This document shows positions 667 to 50,400 of a DNA stretch of 56,391 bases, piece by piece. How positions within the stretch are numbered: the first letter of the stretch is position 1; every line of letters begins with the position of its first letter. The DNA is taken from the IMG/VR virus record IMGVR_UViG_3300023274_000003, positions 1 to 56,391 of that record. One strand, given 5' to 3'. A program made the position numbers and the translations under genes. A model generated the notes under the pieces. It searched no databases. It was not told the origin of the DNA and saw only the letters and a program-made list of their open reading frames with translations. This DNA is from a virus.

Positions 667-720
667 TTACTTGTGAGACATTAGTTTATCGAAGTCGGTT
701 ATCCATTCTAAAAAAATTAA
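667..720 (-). pseudogene. C-terminal remnant of the gene broken by the HNH gene
   Basis: Read on the minus strand, this stretch gives an open tail ending WITDFDKLMSHK then TAA. It has no start codon and begins at the HNH stop. Together with the 19-codon ORF at 1322-1381 it looks like the two ends of one gene separated by the HNH ORF. This is inferred from position and open frame only. Confidence 0.35.
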
Positions 721-1325
721 GCATACCTCATAAAAGTTTTGTTTTTCCCATTTAATTGAGCAAACATACGTGTGGAAGTGATACCTATTGAGTCTGCCGC
801 CTCAGACAAGCTGAAGTAAAATATACCAGTAAATATATTTACAATTATTCTGGTTTTTCTCGTATTCCTATTCTGTTCGAGCCTTGTAGCCCATTTGCAA
901 TTACTAGGGCAGTAATCTCCATCATTATCAATTCTTTCTATAGAATGACGACATGAGGGCTTATGTCCCATATCTTTCAAAAACACAGAAAATTCATTCC
1001 ATTCTTTGCAAAACTTTATACCACGAGCCCCATAATACTTATAAGACTTTATATTTGGGTTTTGGCACCTTTGTTTCATCGACATCCAGGTGTTGTACTC
1101 TGTAGTATTTGACTCTCCGTGTATTACTTTTTTCTGAAACTTTCTTTGCAAACATCCACAACTCTTAACTTTGTTTGCCTTTAATACGCAACCGTAAGCA
1201 TCCGTTCGTCCACCACAGTCACAAACGCAAGACCATAGCGAGTTTTTATTTTTCATTCCAACGAATGAAATCACAGTAAGCATGTGGAACTTTTTGCCAA
1301 TCAGGTTTGATAGTCTTTTATTCAT
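717..1325 (-). CDS. HNH endonuclease with N-terminal zinc-binding domain
   Basis: The protein has 202 residues from ATG 1325. The N-terminal third has closely spaced Cys residues (CVCDCGG, then SCGCLQRK) typical of a zinc-binding module. The middle contains TWMSMKQRCQNP and ERIDNDGDYCPSNCKWAT, the signature of a common phage HNH-type homing endonuclease family. The C-terminus resembles a NUMOD-like DNA-binding helix. An upstream in-frame start at 1442 would overlap the neighbour by 65 nt. ATG 1325 is preferred because it overlaps the preceding stop as ATGA. The gene sits between two fragments that look like parts of one disrupted ORF. Confidence 0.85.
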   Translation of the reverse strand: MNKRLSNLIGKKFHMLTVISFVGMKNKNSLWSCVCDCGGRTDAYGCVLKANKVKSCGCLQRKFQKKVIHGESNTTEYNTWMSMKQRCQNPNIKSYKYYGARGIKFCKEWNEFSVFLKDMGHKPSCRHSIERIDNDGDYCPSNCKWATRLEQNRNTRKTRIIVNIFTGIFYFSLSEAADSIGITSTRMFAQLNGKNKTFMRYA

Positions 1326-1381
1326 ATGTTTAAGTATTTTAACAACCCCAAATCTTCCAGTTGTTTCTTTATCTCGTTCAT
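1322..1381 (-). pseudogene. 19-codon ORF, probable N-terminal remnant of a broken gene
   Basis: The ORF encodes MNEIKKQLEDLGLLKYLNI. It starts with an ATGA overlap on the 131-aa gene at 1378-1773 and ends with an ATGA overlap on the HNH start. A start coupled to the upstream gene is typical of real genes in this operon. The abrupt stop next to the HNH gene, and a matching tail at 667-720, suggest an insertion truncated it. Confidence 0.4.
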
Positions 1382-1773
1382 AGGTAGGAGGGTTTGAAAC
1401 ACCATTTGAAAATTTCTTTATAAAAATCAGCCATATAGCCATTCACCATTTTGTGCCATTTCTTGGTTTTGTAGTGATAAATAATTATACCCAAATAACC
1501 TTTTTCGTCAACCGAAATTACTTCACACGAATAGTCTTTATCTGATAGTTTCGGCGGCAATACATCTTGCGTGAATGAACCTCTGTATTCGCCTAAGGTT
1601 TGGCAATCGGAAATTTTAACTGTTTCAATCTTGTTTTCGTTGTATCTAACAATAATTGATTCTCTATGTAAAACGTTGTTCCTAGGGAATAGACTTGAAA
1701 ACATTACTATTTGATTGTTGTATACCAAGTAGTTTATTCCATCTACTAATTCTTTTGCTTGTTCAATAGTCAT
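1378..1773 (-). CDS. Hypothetical phage protein, 131 aa
   Basis: The soluble, beta-rich-looking protein of 131 residues has no visible catalytic motif. It contains a Tyr/Lys-rich C-terminal segment (HYKTKKWHKMVNGYM). Its TGA overlaps the next ATG. The 128-nt gap on its upstream side (1774-1901) holds no ORF with a start codon. No family is recognised. Confidence 0.6.
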   Translation of the reverse strand: MTIEQAKELVDGINYLVYNNQIVMFSSLFPRNNVLHRESIIVRYNENKIETVKISDCQTLGEYRGSFTQDVLPPKLSDKDYSCEVISVDEKGYLGIIIYHYKTKKWHKMVNGYMADFYKEIFKWCFKPSYL

Positions 1774-1901: not shown

Positions 1902-2297
1902 TTAATATTTCTTACCGTGCTTGTATGGCCTCAATTCATTATATTTCATTTTCATTTGAATATGCCATTGCAGGTCAATATTCATATATTGCGCAATGTC
2001 CATAATCCTTATCATTGCATCGGCCAGTTCATCCTGAATAGTATTCTTTACTGACACCTCAAACTCTTGTTGAAAATACTTTTCATCTTCGCTAGATACC
2101 TCTTCATTAATATCTAGTTCTTTCAAAAAATGATTACTTCGATATATCTTGTCTTTTCTGTCTGCCTCCATTGCTTCTGATAATTCAGAAACCGTTAGCA
2201 TAAGCATTTTAGGTAAATCAAGTCCTTGTTCCCAAAAACCTTTTGCTTTGGCGTTAGAATGTATTTCTTCGGATAACTCTGCTATTGTCTTTGTCAT
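1902..2297 (-). CDS. mazG: MazG-like NTP pyrophosphohydrolase
   Basis: The 131-residue protein carries the all-alpha NTP-PPase metal-binding pattern: SELSEAMEADR (Glu38, Glu41) and DELADAMIRIMD (Glu90, Asp93). Such enzymes hydrolyse NTPs to NMP and pyrophosphate. In phages they may clean nucleotide pools or lower (p)ppGpp-type signals, but the substrate cannot be read here. The ATG lies about 14 nt after the T-run of a structured RNA (copy 1), so expression may depend on readthrough of that hairpin. Confidence 0.85.
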   Translation of the reverse strand: MTKTIAELSEEIHSNAKAKGFWEQGLDLPKMLMLTVSELSEAMEADRKDKIYRSNHFLKELDINEEVSSEDEKYFQQEFEVSVKNTIQDELADAMIRIMDIAQYMNIDLQWHIQMKMKYNELRPYKHGKKY

Positions 2298-2310
2298 ATT
2301 GGTATAAAAT

Positions 2311-2405
2311 GAAAAACCTCGCCTATCCGCTGTACGAGAGCATCAAGGCAAGGCTTTAATATTATTGGTTAAAAGATACTTATCTCGTACATAAGTCTTT
2401 TTTCG
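2311..2405 (-). ncRNA. Kissing-loop RNA, copy 1
   Basis: On the minus strand, hairpin 1 (2378-2396, stem ACTTAT/ATAAGT, with further A/T pairs outward to 2371 and 2400) has the 7-nt loop GTACGAG. Hairpin 2 (2312-2357) has a lower stem CCTTGCCT/AGGCGAGG, with one G-U pair only on this strand, and an upper GCT/AGC stem. Its 7-nt loop is CTCGTAC, the exact complement of loop 1. A T-run TTTTT follows. The MazG gene starts right after. This is the same architecture as copies at 7146-7243, 17085-17177 and 28303-28389, with different sequence. Confidence 0.7.
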
Positions 2406-7145: not shown

Positions 7146-7243
7146 TAAAGAAACCAGTCCCAAAAGATGCGAGGCTTTCGAAACTGGTTCTTTGGATTTT
7201 GTCGGTTAAGACAATTTCTTGTATCTGCTCGCATTCAGATATT
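7146..7243 (-). ncRNA. Kissing-loop RNA, copy 2
   Basis: On the minus strand, hairpin 1 (7222-7241, stem TATCTG/CAGATA) has the 8-nt loop AATGCGAG. Hairpin 2 (7147-7193) has an outer stem GAACCAGT/ACTGGTTTC, an inner stem AAAG/CTTT and the 8-nt loop CCTCGCAT. ATGCGAG in loop 1 pairs perfectly with CTCGCAT in loop 2 (7 bp). TTTCTTTATTT follows hairpin 2. The promoter at 7248-7277 puts the RNA start at hairpin 1. Predicted length is about 95 nt. Confidence 0.8.
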
Positions 7244-13721: not shown

Positions 13722-14135
13722 TTAAATTATTATAAATTCATCTCTTGGTAGAAATATTGCTTTTGCTTTGCCTTTTGCGACCTGTATTTTTATTCTATAT
13801 TTAAAACCATTATAGCCACCAGCTTCACAGCATTGTAGCACCTTGTATGGGGTATTTAATTCAATTGTCGTGGTTTTCCCTCCAAGTTTGGTTACAGCTA
13901 TAATACTTCCCCTAACTGGAAGCCAGCCAACACGTTTCTTTTTAATGGGCTCTTTTTTTAGTGTCTCTAAGTATAAATCAAAAAGCTCTTCTACTGTTTT
14001 TAAATTATCATCAAAACAATCGCTTGGGCTAAATCCTATTGATTGGGTTAATTCTCCTGTGTAATAGTGGAAATGAGTATCTCCATTGTCTAAATTTTTA
14101 AGCCATTTGGCAAATCCTATTGCAAGTTCTTTCAT
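13722..14135 (-). CDS. Hypothetical protein, 137 aa
   Basis: The product has 137 residues, with an N-terminal helix containing FAKWLKNLDNG and a basic middle segment (KKKRVGWLPVRGSIIAVTK) that may form a small beta domain. Its ATG overlaps the stop of the upstream zinc-motif gene as ATGA. Function is unknown. Confidence 0.6.
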   Translation of the reverse strand: MKELAIGFAKWLKNLDNGDTHFHYYTGELTQSIGFSPSDCFDDNLKTVEELFDLYLETLKKEPIKKKRVGWLPVRGSIIAVTKLGGKTTTIELNTPYKVLQCCEAGGYNGFKYRIKIQVAKGKAKAIFLPRDEFIII

Positions 14136-14296
14136 ATCTTTATCTGTTTAATTTTTCCACATTTCTTACAAATCAAAGTGTGTTTACATTCGTAAGGCAA
14201 TCCATCATCTACGTCAAACTTTCTACTTGTGTGATATGTGAGCCAGTCGTGACTACACCCTAATTTCCCTAATACTTTCTTTATTAAATCTTTCAT
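14132..14296 (-). CDS. Small zinc-ribbon-like protein, 54 aa
   Basis: The gene encodes 54 residues with GCSHDW, ECKHTLICKKCGK and a basic end. The spaced Cys and His residues look like a zinc ribbon. It overlaps the downstream gene as ATGA. Its 5' leader resembles the leader of the methyltransferase gene at 14320-14856. Partner and function are unknown. Confidence 0.6.
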   Translation of the reverse strand: MKDLIKKVLGKLGCSHDWLTYHTSRKFDVDDGLPYECKHTLICKKCGKIKQIKI

Positions 14297-14319
14297 AAGT
14301 ATATCTCTATATGATTATA

Positions 14320-14856
14320 TTATAACTTGTCTTTTATTTTGCCTAAAATATTTATTCTATCTTGTGAAACTTCTTTAAGACCTTGTCTTGTCTCAAATAT
14401 TACAATCATTGAATCGTGCATTCCTGAGTTCTTAACGCTTTCCATGCCTTCAGGCACTTTCCATCCGTTTTGATTATAATTAACCGCTTGTCCTTTGGTA
14501 TTTATCCCTACAAATGGAATACGACCCTCAACGAACCTGATTAATTTTGCATTTATCTGAATATGCTGTTGAAATATATTTGTGCTAGTCGATACTGGTA
14601 AAAGCATAACACAAAGTTTGCCTTTTTTGCTTTCTTCAATAGCCTTCATAATAAACGCTTCTTTTAGCTTTCGAGAGTAAGGCGGATTAATAAAGTTTCT
14701 TTCTTTCCATTCAATTTTCAAGCCGTCTTGGTGTGTCTCTGGATTGTATTCATAAGGGCATGGGTCGAAATTAAAGTCAAACTCCTTGTTTAATTCGTAA
14801 TAGAATCTTGCTGGAGTAGCCCAGTTGTCACTATGTGGTAAGTTTCTGTCTTTCAT
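14320..14856 (-). CDS. Phage Dam-type N6-adenine methyltransferase
   Basis: The 178-residue protein contains DNWATPARFYYELNKEF near the N-terminus, FDPCPYEYN, and the catalytic motif INPPYS (NPPY at 57-60). This matches the short phage DNA N-6-adenine-methyltransferase family (PF05869-like). Length is close to the family norm. The phage thus carries two unrelated adenine methyltransferases. Confidence 0.9.
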   Translation of the reverse strand: MKDRNLPHSDNWATPARFYYELNKEFDFNFDPCPYEYNPETHQDGLKIEWKERNFINPPYSRKLKEAFIMKAIEESKKGKLCVMLLPVSTSTNIFQQHIQINAKLIRFVEGRIPFVGINTKGQAVNYNQNGWKVPEGMESVKNSGMHDSMIVIFETRQGLKEVSQDRINILGKIKDKL

Positions 14857-15206: not shown

Positions 15207-15274
15207 ATTGGTATATATTTTAAAATTATATGCAATAATATAAATAAAGTATTTAACAAACAAATTATTTTATG

Positions 15275-15282
15275 TATATTTG
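15275..15282 (+). promoter_or_regulatory. -7 promoter box of tnpB
   Basis: TATATTTG lies 4 bases before the tnpB ATG at 15287, with no well-spaced TTG upstream. Transcription would start at or next to the ATG and give a nearly leaderless mRNA. Confidence 0.5.
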
Positions 15283-15286
15283 TGTA

Positions 15287-16384
15287 ATGAAAGTTTTTAA
15301 AACATATAAGTACAAGCTAGGTCTTTCCAAAGTACAATCTAATCAGGTTGATAAGTGGATTGGTGCATGTAGGTATGTTTATAATTTGGCTTTAGAATGC
15401 AAAATTGAAGCATGGAAGAAAAGGGTTTCGGTGTCTAAATTTGACTTAATAAATCAATTGCCATCGTTAAAAGATGTGGACTGGATAAAATCCGTTCCAT
15501 CACAAAGCCTTCAAGATGTAGTTGAGCGTTTAGATAAAGCCTATCAAAGCTTTTTCAAGGGTGGAGGATTCCCTAAATGGGCAAAAAGGGGAGAGTATAG
15601 TTCAATATTATTTAAGACTGTCTATGTGAAAGATAGTGAATTTGTCCTTCCAAAACTCGGGAAGGTCAAGGTCTATAAAGATAGAATGCCCAAAGGCAAG
15701 TTAAGTGTGGCAAAGATAACAAAAGAAGCTAACGGCTATTTTTTATCAGTAACTTTCGAGTCTGAATCAGAAAACCTCTATCCTACCGACGAGAACCAAG
15801 TAGTAGGCTTAGATATGGGTATAACATATTTTTTGACTGATTCAAATGGTGTTTTTGTTGACAATCCACGTCATACAAAAAAGTATGAAAGGAAGTTAAG
15901 AGTAAAAAACAGGGCATTAGCACGGAAGAAAAAGGGTAGCAATGGTTTTAAGGAAGCTAAGAAACAAGTTGCTAAACTTCATTCTAAAATTGCCAATGTT
16001 CGCAAAGATTTTCTACATAAACTTAGTTTCCAATATGTCAAAGAAAATTCATTAATCGTGTCTGAGGATTTGAAAGTTAAGAGCATGATTAAGTTTGGTA
16101 ATCTTTCAAAGCACATTTCGGACACAGGTTGGTCAATGTTTTTTGATATGCTAGCATACAAAAGCAAGTTTTACGAAAAGACCTATGTAAGAATTGACCC
16201 TAAATTTACCTCTCAAAAGTGTAATTCATGCGGTCATACCTGCAAAGAAAACCGGATAACTCAATCAAAGTTTCTTTGTGTAAAATGTGGGCATAATGAA
16301 AATGCAGACTTTAACGCTGCTCAAAATATTTTAGGCAAGGGCATTGTCTTAGTTCGTCAACGTGAAACATTAGTTTGTGCGTAG
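15287..16384 (+). CDS. tnpB: TnpB, RNA-guided transposon-associated endonuclease (solo)
   Basis: The 365-residue protein (from ATG 15287) has a full TnpB layout: N-terminal OrfB helix-turn-helix domain, RuvC-I GLDMGI (Asp176), RuvC-II SEDLKVK (Glu260), a CxxC...CxxC zinc finger (Cys312, 315, 331, 334) and RuvC-III NADFNAA (Asp341). All catalytic and zinc residues are present, so it looks active. No tnpA transposase is near it. TnpB is guided by an omega-RNA from the element's right end and cuts targets next to a TAM. It has inserted between a ribbon-helix-helix gene and a truncated ORF. Confidence 0.93.
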   Translation: MKVFKTYKYKLGLSKVQSNQVDKWIGACRYVYNLALECKIEAWKKRVSVSKFDLINQLPSLKDVDWIKSVPSQSLQDVVERLDKAYQSFFKGGGFPKWAKRGEYSSILFKTVYVKDSEFVLPKLGKVKVYKDRMPKGKLSVAKITKEANGYFLSVTFESESENLYPTDENQVVGLDMGITYFLTDSNGVFVDNPRHTKKYERKLRVKNRALARKKKGSNGFKEAKKQVAKLHSKIANVRKDFLHKLSFQYVKENSLIVSEDLKVKSMIKFGNLSKHISDTGWSMFFDMLAYKSKFYEKTYVRIDPKFTSQKCNSCGHTCKENRITQSKFLCVKCGHNENADFNAAQNILGKGIVLVRQRETLVCA

Positions 16385-16513: not shown

Positions 16514-17083
16514 TTAAGTTCTTTTACTATTTTTTCTTTCCCTATATGTTAGATTGTTACATTTTCTAGTTTTCAGTCTATACTCCTCTCTTATTAATAT
16601 CAATTCTTCTTTTGTTCTTCTAGTCGCTTCGAATCTTTCACAAACCTCGTCCCTTATCTTTATAGCCTCTTCAAGTGTATCATATTTTCCAAAGTACGTT
16701 TTTATACCCATTATTCGGATTCTCACTTGAAACCTATTGTTTATATTGCTTATACCAGGAGTTAAATAGCCTTTAAATATCTTTTCGTGATTAGCGTTTT
16801 CTCTGCTTGTTACAAACTCTAAATTAGATAAATAGTTGTTTGTTTTATTCAGGTCTTTATGATTAACATATGTTTTAGTCTTTTCTAAAAAAGCATTTGC
16901 CACGAGAACATGAATCCTAAATGATTTGCATCTAAGATTTACTGATAAATATCCGGTATGTTTACATAAAAAAGGTTTTAATATCAAGTTTCTTTTTATA
17001 GACTTTACGCTGCCTAATGAACTAACCAAATAAAACCCTTCGTATCCATTTACACTTTTCCAAATTTCTTCTTGATTTTTCAT
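16514..17083 (-). CDS. HNH homing-type endonuclease with NUMOD4 and AP2-like domains
   Basis: From ATG 17083 the 189-residue protein begins MKNQEEIWKSVNGYEGFYLV, a NUMOD4 motif. It continues with an HNH core (VNHKDLNKTNNYLSNLEFVT) and an AP2-like DNA-binding segment (FQVRIRIMGIKTYFGKYDTL). This is the classical architecture of free-standing phage homing endonucleases. The longer in-frame start at 17131 lies inside the kissing-loop RNA and is rejected. The gene directly follows that RNA (copy 3). Confidence 0.9.
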   Translation of the reverse strand: MKNQEEIWKSVNGYEGFYLVSSLGSVKSIKRNLILKPFLCKHTGYLSVNLRCKSFRIHVLVANAFLEKTKTYVNHKDLNKTNNYLSNLEFVTSRENANHEKIFKGYLTPGISNINNRFQVRIRIMGIKTYFGKYDTLEEAIKIRDEVCERFEATRRTKEELILIREEYRLKTRKCNNLTYRERKNSKRT

Positions 17084-17084
17084 A

Positions 17085-17177
17085 AATAAAAAAAAGATTT
17101 GGCTTTCGAGGTCGTGGTCTCTACTTGCCAAATCTTTAAGATTAATATCTTTTTACTTGCAATCCACGACAATTGCG
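17085..17177 (-). ncRNA. Kissing-loop RNA, copy 3
   Basis: On the minus strand hairpin 1 (17159-17176, GCAAT/ATTGC) has the 8-nt loop TGTCGTGG. Hairpin 2 (17093-17137) has a perfect 11-bp stem AAAGATTTGGC/GCCAAATCTTT, an upper stem GAG/CTC and the loop ACCACGAC. GTCGTGG pairs perfectly with CCACGAC (7 bp). TTTTTTTT follows. The promoter at 17181-17210 places the start at hairpin 1. The HNH gene ATG is at 17083. Confidence 0.8.
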
Positions 17178-17180
17178 ATA

Positions 17181-17210
17181 CTAAATTAAGAGAATAATTG
17201 ATAAAATCAA
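17181..17210 (-). promoter_or_regulatory. Promoter of kissing-loop RNA copy 3
   Basis: On the minus strand TTG (17210-17208), a 19-bp spacer and TAATTTAG (17188-17181) match with one base off the TAnnTTTG consensus. The predicted start is near 17176, the first base of hairpin 1. Confidence 0.6.
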
Positions 17211-17503
17211 AGTAATTGTTTAATTAATTCTAGGGTTTTTACAGAATGAAGCGTACTAGGTGTAACCCTTAAAAGCCTCCATCCCAATACTACCGCTTGA
17301 TTGTACTTTTCCATATCTCCCATAAATCCTTTTCCCCTAGTATGCCTGCCTTGTGTAAATACTCCGCCCTCTACCTCAATAGCTATCTTTTGCGAAATTA
17401 TCGCATAATCAAAACGCCATTTTCTTTTAGGGTGAAACGGATGTTCTTTAGTTACTTCAATACCATATAAAGACTTTATGAGCATTGTAAACTGGTCGTT
17501 CAT
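17207..17503 (-). CDS. PD-(D/E)XK nuclease (DUF559/Vsr-like)
   Basis: The 98-residue protein has the nuclease core RKWRFDYAI, then KIAIEVEGGVF (the D...ExE motif), then FMGDMEKYNQAVVLGWRLLRVTP, a fold shared with Vsr and DUF559 enzymes. It overlaps recT by 4 nt, so it is likely the nuclease partner in phage recombination. A Holliday-junction or single-strand specificity cannot be told apart from sequence. Confidence 0.8.
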   Translation of the reverse strand: MNDQFTMLIKSLYGIEVTKEHPFHPKRKWRFDYAIISQKIAIEVEGGVFTQGRHTRGKGFMGDMEKYNQAVVLGWRLLRVTPSTLHSVKTLELIKQLL

Positions 17504-28302: not shown

Positions 28303-28389
28303 ACAGTTCATTTGAAAAAGGTAGGATGTTTTCAAATGGAAATAATCACCTTTTAAGCCTTGCCAAATCCTACTGGTCAAGGCTTTTTA
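28303..28389 (+). ncRNA. Kissing-loop RNA, copy 4 (no gene downstream on the same strand)
   Basis: Hairpin 1 (28307-28340) has a perfect 10-bp core CATTTGAAAA/TTTTCAAATG and the loop AGGTAGGATG. Hairpin 2 (28355-28385) has AAGCCTTG/CAAGGCTT, an upper CCA/TGG stem and the 8-nt loop AATCCTAC. GTAGGAT (28321-28327) pairs perfectly with ATCCTAC (28367-28373). TTTTT follows. The next plus-strand gene is 1.3 kb away, so this copy reads as a free small RNA of about 87 nt or an operon terminator with extra structure. Confidence 0.85.
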
Positions 28390-36198: not shown

Positions 36199-38415
36199 AT
36201 GGCAGGACTAGGCAACTTTACATTAACCGTTGGGGTAGATACTTCAGCATTGACAAGGGGCTTAGCCAGTGCATCTTCACAACTTACTGCCTTTGCCTCT
36301 AGGGCTGAATCAACAGGAACCCGACTATCTCTTGCAATCTCTACACCTTTAGCCCTTTTAGCTAAGAGGGCTATTGAGTCGTATGGTGAACTAGAAGCCC
36401 TTCGTATGTCTTTACGTACAGTAGAAGGGTCAGCCGCTAACACAGCCCGCAGACTAGCCGTATTAAACGAAGTAGCTAAATTGCCAGGGGTAGGCTTTAA
36501 AGAAGCGATTCAGGGTGATGTCAGACTTCGTACGGTCGGGATAAGTGCTGACCTTGCCAAGCGTTCGATGATGGCCTTTGGGAATGCGATTGCGATTGCC
36601 GGAGGGGGTAAAGCGCAATTTGAATCGGTAATAAATCAGTTGACACAGATGTCCACAAGGTCAAGTGTGCTGATGGAAGATTTAAAACCAATCACTACCG
36701 CCGTTCCTGCCGTTTCACGGGTTCTTCAGCAGCTATACGGTACGATTGATACTGAAGTTATTTCGGCTAAGCTGAAAAAGACCGGAACCTCTACCAAAGA
36801 GTTTATTGCGCAGATAACGGCCGAACTGGAAAAGCTACCACCAGCTACGGGAGGTGTAAAGAATGCGATTGAAAACTTAGGCGATAGCGTTTTTAAAACC
36901 TTTGCGCAAGTAGGTGAGACTATCAACAAGAATGTTGGTGTAAAAAACTGGCTTGATAGTATTGGAAGTTCTTTAGAAGAAGCGGCCAGTGGCTTTGCCA
37001 GATTATCCCCTGAGGCACAGAAAGCTATTTTAGCTATAAGTGCCGTAGCAATCGCTTTACCTCCTTTTTTACTTTTAGCCGGAACGATTCTTCCTGCCTT
37101 ACAAACGGGCTTTTTAGCCTTGCTAAGTCCCATCAATCTGGTAGGAGTTGCTTTAGGGGCTGCGGCAATTTACGCAGTTTCCCATTGGAACAAGGTTGAA
37201 GATATTATCTACCGGATAAAAACTAATTTTCAAAGAACTCTGGCTGACATAGGTTTAGGCATTGCGGGAGTATTAAGAGACACAGAAGGGGCGGCTGACA
37301 TTGCCAGTGCATATGTTAAAAGCAGAGGAATTAACCCTGAATCGCAACGAGACGCTTCGGCGCGTGGGCGTTTCATGTACAAAAAGGGGGGGCAACAGGA
37401 TTTGGCTAATTTAGCCCGCATCAAGCAGGAAGAAGAAATAGCTAAAAAGCAAAAAGACATAGCCGCCTCCGCCTCGTCAGTCAGCACAAAACAGGAACAA
37501 GACAGAATAAAAGCCATTAAAGATTTGTCTGATAATCTATTAAAAGACAGACAAAGGGCAGAGGTAGAAGCAATAGCTAACAAGGCTGAAAGGGCAAGGG
37601 CTGGCGCGCAAATGCAGTACAATGAAGAAGTAAAAGCGTATGCTGACTCTATCAATGCTTTAAAGGCAAGTGTAGCAGAGAAGAAACCACTATGGGAAGG
37701 GTATACACAATTTGTTATAGCAAAAGACAAGGAGTTAAAACAAAAACTAAGAGAGAACGACCTACTATCGGAGTTTACCAGTAAGCCATTAAAGAGTATT
37801 GGTTCAGACGATAATTCTAAAGATACCCAAGCCCGTATTTCAGCCATTATGGGTATCTCTCCCGATGGCGTAGATAAATACGCCGTTTCTCTAAATCAGC
37901 GCATGAAAAACGCTGCCAAGTACCTACAGGAACAAGGGGAGAGCAAGATGGATACTAATAATCTTGAACAGTTTTTAGGACTAGCGGAAGGAACAATTAC
38001 GGGGGATACTTTTGCTAAATATGCTGAACAGGCTAACATCTTAATAGATGCCAATCAGCGTATTAAAGAAAGCTTTCAGAACATGGCAGCCGATTCGTTA
38101 GCCTCGCTTTCGATTGTGGTGGGGGAGATGATAGCAGGAACGGCTACAATTGAAGATTTAGCCAATACTTTACTTTCAAGCATATCCCAATCTTTAGCGC
38201 AAATAGCTAAACAAAATATTCTAATCGGACTATTCACGGGTAACGTGGGCATGGTAGCACAAGGCGTATTAGCCGGAATAGGGGCAGGTATTACCGGCGG
38301 ACTTGCCAAGAAACAACAGCAAAATCAGCAAAACTCACAAGGAAACAGGACAGTAGTCAGGGGTCAGGAAATAGAAACAGTCAGAGCGAGGTACGATACG
38401 ATTAAAAACTTTTAA
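36199..38415 (+). CDS. Tape measure protein
   Basis: The 738-residue protein has MAGLGNFTLTVGVDTSALTR, a typical tape measure start, long Ala/Lys-rich helices, a hydrophobic central segment (about residues 275-320, KAILAISAVAIALPPFLLLA) that may insert in membranes, and a Gly/Ala-rich C-terminus. Length is short for the class, suggesting a tail of around 110 nm by the usual 1.5 Angstrom per residue. Its stop overlaps the next ATG as TAATG. Confidence 0.92.
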   Translation: MAGLGNFTLTVGVDTSALTRGLASASSQLTAFASRAESTGTRLSLAISTPLALLAKRAIESYGELEALRMSLRTVEGSAANTARRLAVLNEVAKLPGVGFKEAIQGDVRLRTVGISADLAKRSMMAFGNAIAIAGGGKAQFESVINQLTQMSTRSSVLMEDLKPITTAVPAVSRVLQQLYGTIDTEVISAKLKKTGTSTKEFIAQITAELEKLPPATGGVKNAIENLGDSVFKTFAQVGETINKNVGVKNWLDSIGSSLEEAASGFARLSPEAQKAILAISAVAIALPPFLLLAGTILPALQTGFLALLSPINLVGVALGAAAIYAVSHWNKVEDIIYRIKTNFQRTLADIGLGIAGVLRDTEGAADIASAYVKSRGINPESQRDASARGRFMYKKGGQQDLANLARIKQEEEIAKKQKDIAASASSVSTKQEQDRIKAIKDLSDNLLKDRQRAEVEAIANKAERARAGAQMQYNEEVKAYADSINALKASVAEKKPLWEGYTQFVIAKDKELKQKLRENDLLSEFTSKPLKSIGSDDNSKDTQARISAIMGISPDGVDKYAVSLNQRMKNAAKYLQEQGESKMDTNNLEQFLGLAEGTITGDTFAKYAEQANILIDANQRIKESFQNMAADSLASLSIVVGEMIAGTATIEDLANTLLSSISQSLAQIAKQNILIGLFTGNVGMVAQGVLAGIGAGITGGLAKKQQQNQQNSQGNRTVVRGQEIETVRARYDTIKNF

Positions 38416-41400
38416 TGGCATATACTACTAAATACATTGCACAAGCCTACGGGCTTTCTTCTACCCCCTGGCGGGTTGAATTACTGGTAGATGGATACGA
38501 CGACGACCCTATCCAGTTGGATTTGGTTGAAAACGGCGTTCTGATTGGTTATGACCGTGAAGAAAACCGTTTCAATCCTATCTATAGCAGGTATGCGATT
38601 ATTTCCCTAAAAGTTACGGGTGTATTTAATTTAGACACCCTACAGTTTGATGATGAACGCAAATTCCAGGTCAATATCTATAAGGATAATAGTCTGGAGT
38701 TTGTTGGGTGGTTAGTGCCTTTTTACTCTACTGAAGCCTTCGAGGATACCTCTATTACGACCTTAGATGTAATGGCTAAGGATACGATTAAACAGTTGTC
38801 GAATGTAGATTTTTACAACCAGTACCCCGAACGTATTAGTAACAAGCAGTCGTTTAAGGAAGTAATCAGTCTTGGGTTAAAAGAATTAGGCTATCCCTTA
38901 TATCTGGAAATCTACTATAATAAGTACGATGTTGCGATGTATAAAGAGGCGATGGACTGCCCTTTGTCTCAACTGTATTTTGATATTTACCGCCTGCAAA
39001 ACGAAGACGGAACATGGATGAACTTTTATGAGTGTATCCAGTTGCTACTCGCTGAGCATGATTTAAGATTATTTCAGGCACAGGGTAAGTGGATTATTAT
39101 TTCCCCGATTGAAGTAGTAGACGGCTCGGTATCAGGTAGAAGATTTGAACCGGAATATGGGTTCTATATGTCTACAGTAACCCTTGATACTAATCAGCTT
39201 ATTCATAAAGGCGGACTACCTATTAAAAGAAATGCCGTTAGAAGAAAAGATATTCCTATTCAGTCCTTTACGGGGATGTACGAATATGGACTACTTTCTA
39301 ATCTGGTTTTAAACGGAGACTTGCTACGGTTTACAGGAGACACCCCCGACTACTTTACTAAAGGCGGCGACTGGTCGGAAGGCGAATTAACCGATATTGT
39401 TGGCGGGGGAGTAATGATTGACCGTACTTACATACGTAAACTGTTAGAAATCCCTACCGAAACTGCACCCGACCCTATTCTCTTGAAGAATCAGTTTCTT
39501 ATCTCTGACCAGATAGATATCACTTCCTTAACAGCCCTTAGGTTTAAGGCTGATGTGTACGGCGATGATGATATAGACGAAATAAGAATAGCCCTTAGAA
39601 TGACTAAAACCTCATCGCCTGGGGCTGTGTTTTATGTAGACGGTGCGGGAAATGTATACAACGTTCCGATGTCTATTTATGTACAGAAAGGAACGGAAAA
39701 CAAAGCCTTTTCGATTGATGTATCGTGGAACAGGGAAGACCCTGCCTTTGATTTTAACCTTCGTTATGCCAACGTTTTAGAAATTATCCTTTATCCTGGC
39801 ATAAGATACCGGACAGGTGAACCTTCTAATTTACACGTAAAATTCAGAAACTTAGAATTAACCGGAACGCCGTATGTATATGACGCTAATTATGTAGGCA
39901 GAAAATACCAGTACACCAATACGGATTTACCTCACTCTAAAAAAGAAGAGGTATTCAACTTCGGTTTTCAGGACAACGTTATAGACACGCTGTCAGACTT
40001 CAAGTTAAGAAGTAGTATGTTTGTGGGGGAGACTATTATCAAAACCACCCAATGGAAAAGAACTACTGAATCTACTTATAGAAGCCTGATAGAATCAGTT
40101 CTGATCGACAGATTAGTGCTGACTTCAAGGTTTGGTGACATTTTAGAGGCAAGTATTAAAGGGTATCTGAGTTTCTTTCAGACCCCGCAACTAACGGTTG
40201 GCAGTAAAAGATTCCTGATTTTATTCGCCGAATACAACCTTCAGGACGATTCTACCGAAGTCGTTTTAACCGAACTCTATACCAACGAAGTAGATGTTTC
40301 TTATAAATTAATCGACGTATTTAAGGATAAGGAAATAGATGTAAGCGACGGAACGAGTACCTCACAAACAGGAGTAGGGGAGAATTTCGACCCGCCAATT
40401 ACTTCTAAGGGGGGAGGAACTACGTATGGAGGTCTTTACCCGGACGGAGGAATTGATTCGCTCCCTAGCGACACAATCGACCCTAAAGCAAAGAACCCGG
40501 GCAAACTTTTAATCGGCAGGGCGCATGCATTATTATTGGAATTGGGAAACCTTGATAGCCTGACTAAGATTTTCGGGCGTTTTGGACTCCTGAATGAAGA
40601 TAATTTTTTAGGGGAGTTCAAGACCGCCGGAATTACTTCTGATCGGGAGTATACCTTCCCTGATAGAGACATAATTATAAATGATTATGACTATTTAGTC
40701 AATACGCCCGACTTTTACCCTCCTTTAGTAGATGGAACAGCTAACCATCTGGTTAGATTCGGGGCAATGGGAGATGCATTAGTAGATTCATTAATTATTG
40801 ATACAGGAACAAATGTAGGCATAGGTAGTTTGTTTAATATTGACCCTATTACGGGTGGATTAGTAGGAACATCGGCAGAATTTACTACACTAAACGTGCT
40901 GAACACTTCGACCTTTAACGATACGGCAACTTTTGAGAATTATATCTTATTGCCAGACTTACCAACCGATCCTTACCATGCAACCAATAAAGCCTATGTC
41001 GATTCTTTAGCCTTTGTAAAAAGAGGGGACACGGTAAAAACGATTGCATTAAGCAGTGTTACCAAGTCAGGCACGCAGACAGTTTCAGGATATGCTTTAA
41101 GCGCAGGCGAATACGTATTATTAACGAATCAGGCAAGTCCGGCAGATAATGGCGTATGGGTAGTAGCTAGTGGGGCATGGTCACGTTCCACTACGGATGA
41201 TTCAGATGCTGAAATCAGGGGGGCTTATCATTATATTACTGACGGGACTTATGCCAATCAAAGATATATAAATACCAATACATCAGCCATTACCCTCAAT
41301 ACGACCCCGATTACTTACGGGATAGACTTTGGGGCAGAAACCGATCCGGTATGGACGGCGTTTAAGACCACTAACGCGATTACCAGTACCTCGGTAACCC

Positions 41401-44400
41401 ATTGGAACGATGCTTATAGCTGGGGCGATCATGCCGATGCGGGCTATGCTTTGGCGACTAGAACGATAACTATTAATGGAACCAGTGGACAAATTGCCAG
41501 TTCGGCAAGCAGCCAGGATTTAAGTGCAAACCGTACATGGACATTAAGTTTAATAGCTACAGGCGTAACGGCCTCGACTTATAAAAGTGTCACAGTTGAC
41601 ATTTACGGCAGAGTAACGGCCGGAACCAATCCGACTACACTCGCAGGCTATGGGATTACAGACGCCTTGCCTTCCACAGCCATTAACGGCACAATAAATC
41701 AGGTAGCTAAATTTGCTTCTTCTGATAGCATAGAAGATTCAAGTATTACTTCGGTAGGTGCAAGTGTGGGGATTAACAGATCGTCGCCTGATTCCTCTTA
41801 TGCCTTAGACGTGAACGGTTCTGCATTGCTAGGCGGTGCTTTAATAGGTAATTCGTCTTTAGGCGTAGGGATTGCAAACTACTTAGGGACTTCTCCCCGC
41901 ATCGGGGCGATTGGTGGCACGAATCTTGATTTTAATTCTCCAGCTAATTACGTATGGTACACAGGTGGGGGTACCGAAAGGTTCAGGTACGATTCAAATG
42001 GTTTTAAGGTTGGAACGGCAATTAACCCCAGTAGTTTAATCGTTGTAGGAAACGTAGAATATAGCGGTCTCTTATATGTAGGCTCCACGCCGTCAAGTGG
42101 AACCAACGGACAATTCTTAAAACGCGTGGCAACATCCAACGCATGGGCAAATTTAGCTATTTCTGATGTGGCAACTTTGCAAACATCATTAGACGGAAAG
42201 CAACCCTTAGACGGCGATTTAACAGCTATTAGTGCTTTGAGTTCTACGGGATTTCTAAAGAGAACGGGTACGAATACATGGGATTTAGATTCGTCTACCT
42301 ATCTTTCTGCTTCATCCGGCACTACCAACAAAGTTGCAAAGTTTACATCGTCTACGGCACTGGGGGATTCCAGGATTACTGATAACGGAACGTCAGTGGG
42401 AATAGACAAATCCTCGCCCGATGCGGGGTTTGCTTTAGATGTGAACGGGGCAATTCTAATGACTGGATCGGTATCAGGAACAACTTCATTAGGCGTTGCC
42501 ATAGGGAACTACTTAGGTACTACGCCAAGAATCGGGTCTTTAGGCACGCACCTTACTTTCAACTCGTCTGGAGACTATATCTGGTATACTGCGGGGTCTA
42601 TAGAAAGATTCAGATACGATTCAGGAGGTTTTCAGGTAGGAACCGTTACCAACCCCTCTACGATTTCAGTAACCGGACAGTTATCGTATACAGGATATTT
42701 ATACACCGCTTCTGGATACGGCACAGATGGGCAGTTTTTAAAACGTACTTCGTCTTCTAATGCGTGGACTGCTATAGGGATTAGCGACGTAACGTCTTTG
42801 CAGTCCACCCTTGACGCAAAACAGCCCCTAGATGGTGACCTTACCGCTATTGCTGCTTTATCTACCGTAGGGTTCGCTAAACGTACCGGAACAAATGCGT
42901 GGGCAATAGACACAAATAGCTATCAATTGCTTGATGCTGACCTTACCGCTATTGCCGCCCTTACAGGTACAGGGATTCTTAAACGTACCGGAACGAATAT
43001 ATGGGCATTAGATACGGGTACTTATCTTACATCTACGGGTACGGCTAATTATATCTCTAAATTCACCTCTTCGTCGGCTATAGGGAACAGTGTATTATAC
43101 GAAGACTCTGGAAGTATAGGTATTAACGCTACAACCTTAACCGGATATGCACTTAGAATTACCAAAGACTTTCCGACTTCTACATCATACGGGATAAGTG
43201 TAGAGGGATCAGCTACAGTAGCCTCAACAAATGCTTATGGATATCATAGTGCGCTAGGTTCTGGTGCAGACGGAAACCCTACAAATTTAAGACACTTTTA
43301 CGCTACCCAGTCCCCCTTAGTTGGTGCAATTCAAAATCAGGCAGGATTCTATGCCGGATTAAGTTTGGTAGGGGCTACTAATAATTATGGATTTTACGGG
43401 AATATCCCTATCAGTGGCAATTCATGGAATTTGTACATGGCAGGAACAGCTAATAACTACCTGAACGGGAATCTATGGATAGGCACTACTTCTTCGACCT
43501 ATAAATTAGACGTAAATGGTACAGTAAGAATTACGGGGGCTTTTGAACTTGATTCTACCCTGATAGATACAGCTAACAGCGCAGGTGCATCTGGATATGT
43601 TTTAAGTTCAACCGGCACGGGTACTTCGTGGATTAATTTAGCTACGATTTATCAACCCCTAGACGGTGATTTGACGGCAATCGCCGCTTTATCAGCCAAT
43701 GGATTTGCCAAGCGTACAGGCACTAACACATGGACAATTGACACAAGTAGTTATCTTCCTACGTCATCGATAAGCGGAACAAACAACCGTGTAGTTAAAT
43801 TTACTTCAGCTACTACGATAGGGGATTCGCAGATATTCGACAATGGAACGACCGTAGGGATAGGCAGAGGAAATTCTCCTGATACCGGATTTACACTCGA
43901 CGTGAACGGGCCTATATTATCAAGTGCCGCAGTGTACGGGTCTACTTCGTTAGGTGTTGCTATCGGACTTTATTTAGGCGTAACGCCCAGAATAGGCAGT
44001 ATAGGGGGGACTACATTAGATTTCAATTCGCCCGCAAATTACATTTGGTATACAGGCGGCTCTACTGAAAGATTCCGTTATGACTCATCAGGATTTAAAA
44101 TAGGGACAACGGGTAATCCATCGACACTAACAGTCGTAGGGACTGTATATTACAATGATTTGCTGTACGTTGGTAGTTCGCCATCGTCAGGGACTGACGG
44201 ACAGTACCTAAAACGTACATCGTCTTCTAACGCATGGGCTAATATAATTATAGGGGATGTCACAGGGCTACAAACCGCCCTTGATGCTAAGCTATCCGGC
44301 TCTGGCACCACTAATTATTTGCCAAAATATACGGGTAGTCTTGTATTGGGGAATAGCCTTATTAATGACAATGGAAGTGGTATAGGAATTGGCACAACTG

Positions 44401-47400
44401 CCACCGCCGGACGTGTTTTGTTGATTACACAAGCGATAACCGGGAACGTACAGTCGTATGGCACGTTAATCTCCAGTGAAATTCAATCAGGCGTTACAAC
44501 GTCGGTTGATTATTTCAGAACAAGCACAAGCACTCAAGCCGCATCTTTTACGCTTGGAAGTCTTACGCACTATCATGCATTGCAGGGCGTATTCGGTGCT
44601 GGAAGTAGTGTAACGAGTCAATACGGCTTCTGGGTAGATTCCTCCATGACTGGAGCGTCTTCAATCAATGCCGCTTTCAGAGGGTCATTAGCTAAATCTT
44701 CTACTACATGGAATACTTACATGGACGGTGCCGCTAATAACTATATGGCAGGCTCTTTGGGTATTGGCTCTGTAGGTTTGACACAGTTTAATTTGCGTAT
44801 CAGCAAGATTATCACAGGGAACGTTAATAGTTATGGTGTATATAACTCAGGGGATGTGCAAGCGGATGTAACCTCTAGTGCGAGGTATTTTAACACGGCT
44901 GTAAGTACGCAGGCAGCTAGTTTTGGGTTGGGGGCGATATATCACTATTCGGCAACGCAAGGCACTTTTGGCGCAGGAAGTACAGTATCTGACCAAATCG
45001 GGTATTATGTGGATAGTACATTGACTGGGGCTACGAGAAATTACGGATTCTACGGGAGTATAGCGTCCGGCACCGATAGATGGAATTTGTACATGGCAGG
45101 AACAGCCCATAATTACCTGAAAGGTAATTTGTGGATAGACACCTTATCAAGCTCATACAAACTTGACGTAAATGGCACAGCAAGAGTAACGGGGGCTTTT
45201 GAACTGGACTCTACACTAATTGATACGTCAAATAGTGCAGGCACATCTGGATATGTTCTCACCTCAACCGGAACAGGAATCTCATGGATAAATGGGTCTA
45301 CCGTATTCCAGCCCTTGGATGGTGATTTAACAGCTATTGCAGCCCTTTCTACTAATGGATTTGCTAAGCGGACAGGCACAAATACATGGACGATTGACAC
45401 AAATAGTTACCTACCCACTTCGTCTATCGCAGGGACAAATAACCGTGTCACTAAATTTACTTCAACATCTACCATAGGAGATAGTCAGATTACGGATAAC
45501 GGCACCAGTGTAGGGATTAACAGAACAAACCCCGATGCGGGGTTTGTTTTAGATGTGAACGGGGCAATGCTTACCAGCGGTTTTGTTGTTGGTACGGTTT
45601 CGCTAGGCATCGCAATAGCAAATTATTTAGGCACTACCCCAAGGATAGGTAGCTTGGGCGGAACAACCTTAGAGTTTAATTCGCCTGCCAATTATATTTT
45701 CTACACAGGGGGTAGTACCGAACGATTCAGGTATGATAGTTCTGGCTTCCAGGTTGGAACAGGGGCTAATCCGTCTCAGATATCAGTAAAAGGCGATATT
45801 GTCTACAACGGACTTCTTTATGCTGGCAGTTCGCCCTCTAGTGGCAGTAGCGGGCAATTCTTAAAAAGAGGGGCTTCTACGAACGCATGGGCAACTATGT
45901 CCATTAGCGACGTAACGTCTTTGCAGACATCACTGGATGCTAAGTTAAGTATAGCTAATATTAATTCGTACCTATACCCTCCTGCCTCACACACGCATAC
46001 GATTTCTGACACAACAGGTTTGCAAACAGCATTAGATAATAAGCAACCCCTTGATGGAGACTTAACATCTATTGCTGCATTGACCGGAACGGGTTATGCC
46101 AAAAGGACAGGCACTAACACATGGACAATTGATAATAGTTCATTCGCCTTATCTTCGTCTATATCCGGCACTACCAACAAAGTTGCAAAGTTTGTCTCGT
46201 CTACTACTATTGGGGATTCTATTATCACTGATAACGGGACATCGGTGGGCATTAATCAACCTTCCCCTAATTCGTTATACAAATTAGATGTAGGCGGCAG
46301 TGTCAAGGTAGACGATATGAATGTAGGAGAGTCGATATACTACCAAATGTCTATGTATATGGGGCCAGCCTTGAGTAATTATGCCCGAATTGCCACTGGT
46401 GCAGCTACTCTTGAACACTTAGCTACGTCTAATTTTACCTGGTCGTATTACAGCAGCGGGATTGTTCAGAAAATGAAACTTACCCCAACCGGGTTAAAGA
46501 TAGGCGCAGGGAATGCCGCCTATGGGCTTGATGTATCTGGCGACGTGTCATATAGCGGTCTTCTGTATGTAGGGAGTAGTCTGTCAAGTGGAACTAATGG
46601 GCAATTTCTAAAAAGAACCGCGAGTAATAATACGTGGTCTACGTTAGCTATCGCAGATACGACAGGACTTCAGGCTGCCTTAGATACTAAAGCGTCTCTG
46701 GTTGATTTTAATACACTTTGGGACGCAAGATGGACAACCACTCAAGCCGCAGGGGTCACTTTTGGCGGAGAGGTATTAATTTCAGGGGTATTATTGGTTG
46801 ATAACGAGGCAATAATTAACAATGATTTACAGGTAGGGGGGTTACTGGCAGGATTTAATGGATTTAACCTTACAGGGCACTTTAACGACAATACGGGGTC
46901 AGCAGGAACATCGGGCTATGTCCTTTCGTCTACCGGAACGGCTACTGCATGGATTAATCCAACTTCCAGTCTACTTACCGGATACGCCATAGGGGGGGAT
47001 ACCGCAATATCTGCGACTGATTCAATTTTACAGGCATTCCAGAAGGTGCAAGGTCAATTAAGTGCAAAAGTATCTGGAACGCTTAATTATTTACCAAAGT
47101 TTAGTTCTACCACTGCTATAGGTAATAGTATTATTTATGAAAATGGTGGGGTAGGAATAGGTACAACCTCGGTAACAGCCTACGGGCTGAGGCTAACAAG
47201 CAATATTACAGGGGGGCTTAGTGCCTATGGTATCGAATCAAGCGGACAGGTACAAACGGGAGTTACGACCTTAGCGTCTTATTTCAGAACGAGCGCATCG
47301 ACGATTACGGGATTTACCCTTACTACCTTAAATCACTTTTCGGCAGTACAAGGGACGCTGTCTGGAACCGTAACTTCGCAGATGGGATTTAGTGCAAATT

Positions 47401-50400
47401 TCTCATTAACCGGGGCTACTAATAATTACGGGTTTTACGGGAATATAGCCGCCGCCACTAATTCATGGAACTTTTACGGGAACGGAACGGCTAATAATTA
47501 CATGGCCGGGGCGTTAGGGATAGGTAGTACATCATTAACAGGCTTTTCCCTTGTTTTAGGCAAGACAATAACAGGGGCTACTTCGTCATTTGGTATATTG
47601 AATGGGGGTCAAATCCAGTCGGACGTTACGGTTTTAGCAGAATATAACAGAACAACTGCCTCTACTGCGGCGGCATCATTTACCCTCCCGAATCTCATAC
47701 ACTATCACGCAACTCAAGGGACTTTCGGGGCAGGTAGTTCAGTGACTAATCAGTATGGCTTTCAGGTTAGTTCAAATATGACAGGGGCAACAAATGTAAA
47801 CATTGCATTCAGGGGGGCGCTTGCATCTGCTGCTACCAACTGGAACGCATACATGGACGGAACTGCTAATAACTACATGGCAGGTTCTTTGGGTATTGGT
47901 AATAATACGCTTACCCAGTACAATTTACGGATTAGTAAAAACATTACAGGCGCTCCTACTTCCTTTGGGGTTTATAATTCCGGCGACGTTCAATCTGGGG
48001 TCACGTCGAATGCGGTTTATAACAGAACCGTTGCCTCAACGGCAGCAGCATCATTTACGCTTTCACAGCTTTATCACTATCAGGCAACGCAAGGCACATT
48101 CGGGGCAGGTAGTACCGTGACAACGCAAGTAGGCTATTACGTTGATAGCACGACCACTGGAGCTGCCAATAACTATGGTTTTTTTGGCGCGATAGCGTCG
48201 GGGTCTGGCAGATGGAATATTTATATGTCCGGAACAGCTAATAACTACCTGAACGGGAATCTATGGATAGGCACCACATCATCTTCTTATAAGCTGGATG
48301 TAATAGGGACCAGTCATTTCTCACAGGATAGCACTTTCGACGCTAATATTGTCGTACCAACTGCGCCTACATTAAGTAGTCACGCCACCAACAAGGCTTA
48401 TGTAGACTCTTTGTCTTTTATAAAAAGGGGTGATGTAGTAAAAACCATATCCTTAACCAATATTACATTATCTGGCGCACAGACTATCAGCGGATACGCC
48501 GCAGTAGCAACGGATTATGTGTTAGTAGCCGGGCAGACACTTCCGGCGCAAAATGGTGTATATGTGGTAGCAGCAGGCACATGGACGCGTAGCACAACCA
48601 ATGATTCAGATGCTGAAATCAGGGGGGCTTATCACTTAATCACCAATGGCACATACGCCAATCAAAGGTACATTAATACTAATGCGTCTACGATTACAGT
48701 CAATACAACAGGAATTACGTATGCTTTGGATTTTGGGGCAGAAACAGACCCTGTCTGGAGTGCATTTAAATCTGCCAACCTGATTACGGACACTTCGATA
48801 ACTAACTGGAACAGTGCTTATGGATGGGGGAATCACGCATCCGCAGGGTACGCACTGGGCGCAACAACTATTACAATCAATGGAACATCTGGCAGGGTAA
48901 CGAGTTCGGCTGGGGCGCAAGATTTATCAGGCAATAAAACATGGGCATTAGATTTGGCTTCAGGAATAGCAACGCCAGGGACTTACAAGTCTGTTACGGT
49001 AGACACTTACGGACGGGTTACGGCAGGCACAAACCCTACTACTTTAGCTGGGTACGGAATCGTAGACGCATTGGGAACTGCTGCCATCACAGGCACAGCT
49101 AACAAGGTAGTTAAATACGCCACGACTTCGACCTTAGGGGACTCTCAAATCACCGACAACGGAACGTCGGTCGGAATTAACCAGTCGTCACCTAACGCCT
49201 CGTATAAGCTAGATGTGAACGGTTCGGTTTTAGCTACGAGTGGGGTATTTGGAACAGTAACTGATTATATTAAAACTTCATTTTCGACTAACGCTATTCT
49301 GGAATCTTCTGCCGCCCTTGATATTAAAGGAACAACAACGTCCTTTTTCAGTAGTGGCACACAGAAAATGTCCATCAATTCGACTGGGGTAAGGATTGGC
49401 ACAAGTACAGCCTCTTATCCTTTGGATATCTTAGGGAATTTTAACTATACAGGACTTTTACACGTAAGCGGGTCTAATGGAACATCGGGCCAATTCCTGA
49501 AAAGAGGCGCAAGCACAAACGCATGGGCCACACTTGCGGTAGCGGATATATCCGATATTGCGACAGCATATCAGGCTAAACTTTCAGGAACAGGGTTTAT
49601 TAAGATTAGCGGCACAACTATTTCTTATGACAATTCTACCTATCTGACCACTGCTACGGCTACGGCTACTTATCAGCCTTTGCTTGATGATGGCACAGGA
49701 CTTGTACGTTCAACCGCTGGGGCAATTACCTACGATAACACCTCCTACTTATCTACCTCAACAGCGGCCAGCACGTATCAGTTGATTTTAGGTGGTACAG
49801 GCTTTGTTAAGTCGGTCGCAGGGGTAATCAGTTACGATACCAGTACGTATTTAACTACCGCTTCGGCCTCGTCTACTTACCTGACTTCTACCATCGCAGC
49901 TAGTACATATCTATCTATTTCTAACGCTACTGCTACGTATGCCACCAAAGAAGATGCGGTATTACTTCTGACAGATGAAGGCGAAAGAGGATTTAAACTC
50001 TATTCCGATACAGACAAGGCGTTCGGGGAGGCATTTGTATTTATAGATTCAGACACAGGGGTGTTCGGTCTTCATGCTTATAGAAAAGACAGTGCTTTGG
50101 CTGACATGGTTCAGTATGGCATTCAGATTGACAAGGACGGACTGGTGTATCATTTGATGGACGACACCAACCGATACAGATTCCTGACCGAACTTGATTT
50201 GCTGAATCTAACATGGAGTGGCGGGAAAGTAGATAAGGATATTTTAATGGATAGTTACAATACTATATTCTGGAATAAAACAGGGACTGACTACGATGCA
50301 AGAATGTATGGATATAAAAGTGTGGGCGGACTCAGGGGCTTACAAATAGAGTCCTCGTATGACATAACCATAGGTGGCAAGTGGGTTGAGTTATTATCTG

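Follow-up and report, generated by a model that had tools for sequence, protein, structure and literature searches.

A short RNA on the minus strand (17210-17088) of IMG/VR virus record IMGVR_UViG_3300023274_000003, whose positions 1 to 56,391 make up the window of 56,391 nucleotides analyzed here, is confirmed as a real kissing-loop element in which the loop of a 5' hairpin is complementary to the apical loop of an intrinsic terminator. The contact is conserved by compensatory change, and one architecture recurs in many viral contigs and isolated phages, before homing endonuclease genes (HEGs) as well as replication genes, which supports the original prediction of a general RNA family. On balance, we lean toward reading the element as a cis-acting leader (attenuator) RNA of Bacteroidota phages, in which the kissing contact would tune termination. 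Its parts, i.e. leader, terminator, and kissing loops, are of known kinds; the novelty lies in finding them combined in a single short RNA of phages and maintained by compensatory change. No description of a kissing-loop leader RNA was found in the open-licence full text of PMC.

Anatomy of the window element

Promoters of the Bacteroidota follow a consensus of TTG and a -7 box, TANNTTTG. The window element opens with a promoter-like TTG-N19-TAATTTAG whose box lies 4 nt before hairpin 1, in keeping with the predicted promoter originally placed there (Table 1). The lower stem of the terminator is 11 bp long and 100% complementary, and GTCGTGG and CCACGAC, read on the minus strand, pair at 7/7 positions with a duplex energy of -11.8 kcal/mol, exactly as had been proposed for both features. 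The proposal that ACCACGAC forms a loop holds for its pairing part and fails for its shape, as the sequence sits inside a layered apical part of 23 nt (A-AGTA-GAG-ACCACGAC-CTC-GAAA), and the HNH gene does not begin two bases past the T-run as first reported, its ATG lying four bases past it. The encoded protein matches Pfam NUMOD4 (E 3.4e-14) and HNH_3 (E 1.8e-5, 0.1 bit below the HNH_3 cut-off). The fold of the element by itself is moderately unusual only, with a z of -2.40 and 3 of 200 shuffles equally good.

Table 1. Coordinates of the element at 17210-17088, of the other kissing-loop copies in the window, and of adjoining genes.
Feature	Position	Strand	Basis and remarks
-33 TTG, promoter-like, Bacteroidota-type	17208..17210	-	Sequence; 19 nt to -7 box
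-7 box TAATTTAG	17181..17188	-	Sequence; 5/6 fixed positions of TANNTTTG, one mismatch; 4 nt 5' of hairpin 1
Hairpin 1, GCAAT-TGTCGTGG-ATTGC, 5 bp, loop TGTCGTGG	17159..17176	-	Sequence, layout scan; covariation in relatives
Kissing bases GTCGTGG in hairpin 1 loop	17170-17164	-	Sequence
A/T-rich linker, 21 nt	17138..17158	-	Sequence
Terminator hairpin, 11-bp lower stem, AGTA/GAAA internal part, GAG/CTC upper helix	17093..17137	-	Sequence, fold
Kissing bases CCACGAC in terminator apical loop	17117-17111	-	Sequence
T8 run	17088..17095	-	Sequence; 3/8 T within terminator stem
NUMOD4-HNH homing endonuclease gene, 189 aa	16514..17083	-	Pfam; ATG 17083-17081, behind leader
Copy 1, other subtype, TGA/GAT internal motif	2310..2396	-	Loop TGTACGAGA pairs 9/9; without good -7 box
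MazG-like gene after copy 1	1902-2297		phrog_9236; start 15 nt past copy 1
Copy 2, kissing contact of 7 (ATGCGAG)	7151..7241	-	Perfect promoter TTG-N19-TATATTTG upstream; function-unknown gene starts at 7133
Copy 4, kissing contact of 7 (GTAGGAT)	28307..28385	+	TATATTTG 8 nt upstream; no ORF start within 80 nt; convergent ORF next

A layout scan of the window, with thresholds of at least 7 for the kissing contact, 8 for the terminator, and 5 for the hairpin, returned five matches, four intergenic and one within a giant gene, vs a total of 12 in 40 dinucleotide shuffles (0.3 per shuffle). The four intergenic copies carry four different loops (TGTACGAGA, ATGCGAG, GTCGTGG, and GTAGGAT); the gene after copy 1 is a pyrophosphatase according to PHROGs. 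A TGA/GAT internal loop replaces AGTA/GAAA in the terminators of copy 1 and of two contigs (L046 5075-5149, L395 19679-19753; L and G numbers are our handles for loci), and is possibly another subtype marker. On whole contigs the scan gave 43 matches vs 12 in shuffles, and single matches in coding places are therefore not trusted. The second HNH gene of the window (717-1442, or from 1325) is a genuine HNH gene (phrog_374, E 5e-62), and, as had been noted at the outset, no kissing-loop RNA was found upstream of it in layout scans of the window and contigs. The window further encodes a TnpB-like protein at 15272-16384 (+) with OrfB_IS605 and Cas12f1-like_TNB matches, convergent to the HNH gene and ~130 nt from its end, around which Rfam gave no match, and a single ORF of 4053 aa at 38415-50576 (+) in the tail region.

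Conservation of the kissing contact

The window terminase shares 60% identity with its counterpart in Flavobacterium psychrophilum phages; no DNA similarity of the window to known phages was found. In a first scan of relatives, comprising 80 viral loci reached via the terminase and three isolate records, the kissing-loop layout recurred with other loops. From promoter type, terminase kinship, and the hosts of the isolates, we infer that the host is a member of the Bacteroidota. Two backbones were traced by DNA patterns, an AGCCGC type and an AGTA type, the latter including the window copy at 17210-17088. The AGTA-type pattern, AGTAGAG-N6-11-CTCGAAAG, takes its seed from this copy and from L016; among the matches listed, 52 distinct ones have a lower stem and T-rich tail, and 48 of these have a complementary hairpin 1, the other four all being cellular contigs. 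One of the 48 positives, L367, is a chance match on an archaeal contig. With this match left out, the unique AGTA-type RNAs among the matches listed number 48 sequences with 19 loop types. A loop finds its own partner over at least 7 bases in 47 of these 48 RNAs, as against 177 of 2256 cross pairs with foreign loops.

Covariation was counted in an alignment, A2, of 27 of the 48 unique AGTA-type sequences (matches listed), with rows preselected for a kissing contact of at least 6; the count excludes long-hairpin variants, near-duplicates, and those rows, including the window, for which hairpin 1 was misaligned by MAFFT in alignment A1. With the kissing helix included, 97.2% of 646 cells are paired, a percentage inflated by the preselection for kissing; more informative is the number of compensatory types, with two-sided changes in 19 of 24 pairs across the 27 sequences (kissing helix 6/7, lower stem 8/9, hairpin 1 5/5) and the seeded upper helix invariant. 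Covariation lies above that of all 500 shuffles (0/500), and slid controls are 34–43% paired. Outside the seeded form, the upper helix also changes compensatorily (ACG/CGT in L045, AGG/CCT in G024, CAG/CTG in G030). A covariance model, R1, built without the kissing pair and excluding the window copy, finds that copy at 64.5 bits (E 2.3e-12; next best 14.9), a score that is partly circular via the AGTAGAG/CTCGAAAG seed; the other three window copies are of other subtypes, outside the reach of R1.

The AGCCGC type combines near-identical backbones with several loop pairs, among them ATACCAG/CTGGTAT, GTAGGAG/CTCCTAC, GTAGCAGA/TCTGCTAC, GGTGGTGCA/TGCACCACC, and GGTCGTAGC/GCTACGACC. Its pattern gave 70 matches, 51 of them unique, and 10 without a promoter box were left aside; 30 of the remaining 41 satisfy the scripted rule, 9 of the other 11 hold complementarity of at least 7 nt with a weak hairpin 1 (by eye), and the last two have a mismatch (L120) or a G-U (L126). 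In L085-L146, the AGCCGC-type leaders have a common conserved upstream gene, with an end like YMDNSVIDAMRKVADEHDRR, and identical leaders precede different operons.

Isolated phages carry the element as well. In Flavobacterium phage morran9-1 it lies at 14189-14284, upstream of gp43, a DUF1376-like gene (matching L181), and a primase/helicase; the annotated gp42 (L424 14157-14300), a 47-aa hypothetical protein, overlaps the RNA and probably does not represent a real gene. BLAST with the morran9-1 stretch retrieved 57 records, including phages of Lillamyvirus and Muminvirus, with more distant matches among Cellulophaga phages. In the representatives read, both partners of the loops at the replication operon change in step: GTGAGAAG/CTTCTCAC in morran, GTGAGACG/CGTCTCAC in lillamy, GTGGAACG/CGTTCCAC in mumin and snusmum, CTTCTGAC/GTCAGAAG in Cellulophaga phi18:3, and GTACGAC/GTCGTAC in phi10:1 and phi19:1. 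The Flavobacterium lillamy/morran phages and the Cellulophaga phages also share the UTR past the terminator, GTAATCTTAAAACC or one base off; mumin and snusmum are without it and have a different gene behind the leader. In Cellulophaga phage Nekkels_1 (L427 45000-45215), two complementary pairs, ATTGGAA/TTCCAAT and GTCTAAC/GTTAGAC, were seen by eye in a very long terminator stem, in the same kind of place as the other isolate elements; PTm1 has only the promoter-like sequence in common. Across eight isolate phages, a layout scan yielded a single element, against 1.7 in shuffles at the threshold used, and missed those of phi10:1 and Nekkels_1; the isolate evidence rests on the shared locus and the compensatory changes instead. 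Weak BLAST matches of two leaders to other phages were taken as chance.

At the Rfam gathering cut-off, no match was found in the window or in 8 + 12 loci with relatives, except one tRNA, and permissive Rfam scans of window 17050-17260 and morran9-1 14100-14360 gave sub-threshold, unrelated matches only. Model R1 had 0 matches in 296 Flavobacteriales genomes, under stricter filters and for one subtype only, which argues, if weakly, for an element of virulent phages. Three loci with direct relatives of the window HNH, which look like phages of other hosts, held no kissing-loop RNA. A possible relative of the window phage, L438 (56,130 bases), encodes a RecT 72% identical to that of the window; it has no R1 match and no such RNA after RecT, and with other genes at that place it is not a clean empty site.

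Leader layout and proposed mechanism

Among the 48 listed AGTA-type RNAs, 29 have a perfect -7 box (TANNTTTG) no more than 35 nt from hairpin 1, vs 3.6% of random places, and 44 have boxes scoring at least 5; TTG at -33 accompanies only 13 of these 44. As 34 of the 44 boxes sit 1–5 nt 5' of hairpin 1, transcription should begin at the hairpin's foot. The distance from terminator to ATG is 4–27 nt in 44 of the 48, a closeness expected of any intergenic RNA in dense phage genomes, and too short for a promoter, so that the gene must be reached through the terminator. The arrangement is that of an attenuator, with a predicted intrinsic terminator between a predicted promoter and the gene. An ORF begins within 80 nt behind 71 of 74 elements (related-contig copies included; 53 distinct proteins), the three others being window 28307-28385, G003b, and G029b. 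After replacement of a partial copy by its full-length twin and removal of two near-duplicates, 51 downstream proteins were scanned: NUMOD4 is present in 20 and HNH_3 in 20, and other families comprise NUMOD3, AP2, I-HmuI-like, GIY-YIG, HNH_5, DUF6291, a primase-polymerase, an AAA protein, and a methylase. PHROGs classify the L181 and L184 proteins as replisome organizers and that of L185 as a helicase/primase. Nine proteins at AGCCGC-type loci are VapE/primase proteins, DUF6291, methylases, and DUF3223; the second L090 protein of this set lies directly behind the element in other contigs only.

Building on this anatomy, promoter box, covariation, and gene context, the following course of transcription, termination, and read-through can be proposed. 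RNA polymerase would start just before hairpin 1 and produce an RNA of ~90 nt, mostly ending at the terminator a few bases before the start codon, and the mRNA for the gene behind (the HEG in the window, replication genes elsewhere) would come from read-through alone. Pairing between the hairpin 1 loop and the apical loop would set in once the latter has been transcribed and while the terminator's 3' arm is still to come; in truncated consensus folds, the kissing pair (-7.5 to -8.3) outcompetes hairpin 1 (-3.85) before this arm is made, and no alternative antiterminator besides the kissing pair was found in these folds. The contact probably adjusts the fraction of transcripts in which the terminator forms early enough, and probably also renders the short RNA compact and stable. 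The leader probably sets the output of HEGs and replication genes.

It is possible, if rather unlikely, that the element is instead an independent small-RNA gene, complete with promoter and terminator, whose product has its target elsewhere, for instance in the host or the phage, and that the downstream gene is a neighbor read from upstream operons. Such an independent gene would fit the complete promoter-terminator unit, the stability expected of 5' and 3' hairpins joined by kissing, and the three elements without a following gene start, among which copy 4 of the window is an exception to the leader layout; it fits poorly with the start codons found 4–27 nt past most listed AGTA-type terminators, the UTR conserved past the terminator in several isolates, and the retention of the RNA at operon starts. 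Control in trans is a quite unlikely further reading, whereby the released short RNA would pair loop-to-loop with leaders of the same type and turn read-through or translation up or down, with loop types as specificity groups. The loops are indeed self-complementary and of 19 types among the 48 unique listed AGTA-type RNAs, IsrK acts on its own read-through mRNA according to the portion of PMC4825925 that concerns it, and the P4 CI RNA acts on its own leader. Copies within one genome all differ in nine multi-copy genomes (by reading), but this difference is near chance (by a hand estimate, ~0.6 identical pairs expected in 21) and is suggestive, not significant. Moreover, the kissing helix in A2 varies no faster than the lower stem, which does not support diversifying selection on the loops, and intramolecular pairing should win.

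Homing endonucleases and known RNA systems

As for the gene under the proposed leader in the window, it is plausible that the RNA limits HNH expression, as originally suggested, the predicted terminator lying between the promoter-like site and the ATG. The companion suggestion, that the RNA marks HNH insertion sites, is not supported. Flank comparison showed that L255 retains 167 nt and no RNA at the site of the L158 unit, and that L158 and L261 retain 135 and 103 nt, respectively, and no RNA at the site of the L170 unit; judged by these flanks, RNA and HEG come and go together at both sites. At replication operons, the RNA is retained while the first gene differs (L231 vs L171; L184/L226 vs L201). 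Further comparisons with a subject lacking a detected element (L158 vs L170; L170 vs L182, L147, and L255; L186 vs L182 and L170; L256 vs L158; L261 vs L182 and L170) show longer or other sequence and are not clean empty sites. The joint absence at two HEG sites and the persistence at replication operons indicate a general leader carried by some HEGs rather than an insertion mark.

It is very improbable that the RNA belongs to the homing-endonuclease element alone, for instance as its guide or as a hairpin masking the RBS. The abundance of NUMOD4 and HNH_3 among the 51 downstream proteins and the joint absences just described speak for this reading, but the RNA also precedes replication genes, methylases, and a MazG-like gene, and such HEG-free copies largely refute it. 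The original prediction had held that an RNA always lost with the HNH gene and never seen alone would belong to the HNH element, an objection that fails in view of the copies before replication genes. Several unrelated HEG classes lie behind the RNA, and L223 has two HEGs of different classes, each with its own RNA and its own loop pair. Among 80 NUMOD4-HNH loci sampled without use of the RNA motif, many of them probably in phages of other hosts, a kissing contact of at least 7 occurred upstream in three only, no more than in shuffles, and two of these were convincing: L461 and L515, new subtypes with loops ATGGTAG and GGTCAAG. Some HEG lineages in Bacteroidota phages carry the leader, and most HEGs are without it. 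Chance or an ordinary terminator, for which only the modest fold z of -2.40 speaks, can be dismissed given the covariation, and recurrence also argues against it.

Two further candidates were rejected. An IscB/TnpB guide RNA (HEARO/omegaRNA) finds no Rfam match, the partner here is a NUMOD4-HNH protein or replication proteins, and the nearby TnpB gene is convergent. A type III toxin-antitoxin (ToxI-like) would call for features not found here: there is no tandem repeat in 16900-17500 and no ToxN-like family among the 21 listed for the 51 downstream proteins.

The cis-acting leader resembles several known systems in part. ColE1 RNAI/RNAII-type kissing joins 7-nt, fully complementary loops of two RNAs; the loops here are likewise 7 nt and fully complementary, but belong to one RNA. 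The put-type antitermination RNA of HK022 makes polymerase ignore later terminators, and the element's layout at operon starts is compatible with such a role; a literature search for put-type RNAs in open-licence PMC was empty. In P4, the complementary sequences are separate and the RNA is processed, whereas both partners here are loops of one short RNA. As far as it is covered in the relevant part of PMC4825925, the P4 CI RNA/leader system places phage replication genes under a complementary RNA and early leader termination, a configuration that would be shared by the replication genes behind the present leader. The same part of PMC4825925 describes a double role for IsrK of the Gifsy-1 prophage, which heads a read-through mRNA as its leader and also exists as a short RNA that acts in trans. 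The likeness is one of layout, comprising a phage promoter, a short RNA ending at an intrinsic terminator, and partial read-through into the genes behind, all predicted here; unlike the translational switching of IsrK (PMC4825925, same part), the present element has kissing between hairpin 1 and terminator loops and occurs in Bacteroidota phages in many copies before many downstream genes. The sections of PMC2988022 on T4 describe RBS-masking hairpins, and terminators inside mobE/segF, that curb HEG expression, and an RNA structure or terminator would similarly limit a phage HEG here, which makes restraint of the HEG a reasonable purpose. An RBS-sequestering hairpin of the T4 type was itself rejected, as the window ATG lies outside the stem, and the leader, unlike those of T4 in these sections, has its own promoter-like site.

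These findings define a structured RNA family, outside every Rfam model, with strong covariation for the contact between a 5' hairpin and an intrinsic terminator loop. The element sits at replication operons of Bacteroidota phages and before some mobile endonucleases, and its presence in cultured phages (Lillamyvirus, Muminvirus, Cellulophaga phi10:1, phi18:3, and phi19:1) makes the mechanism directly testable. A phage-wide RNA code, in which each self-complementary short RNA would act in trans and solely on leaders that share its loop pair, is unlikely; if true, it would place replication operons, and the HEG cassettes that captured the leader, under regulation of a copy-control or superinfection type.
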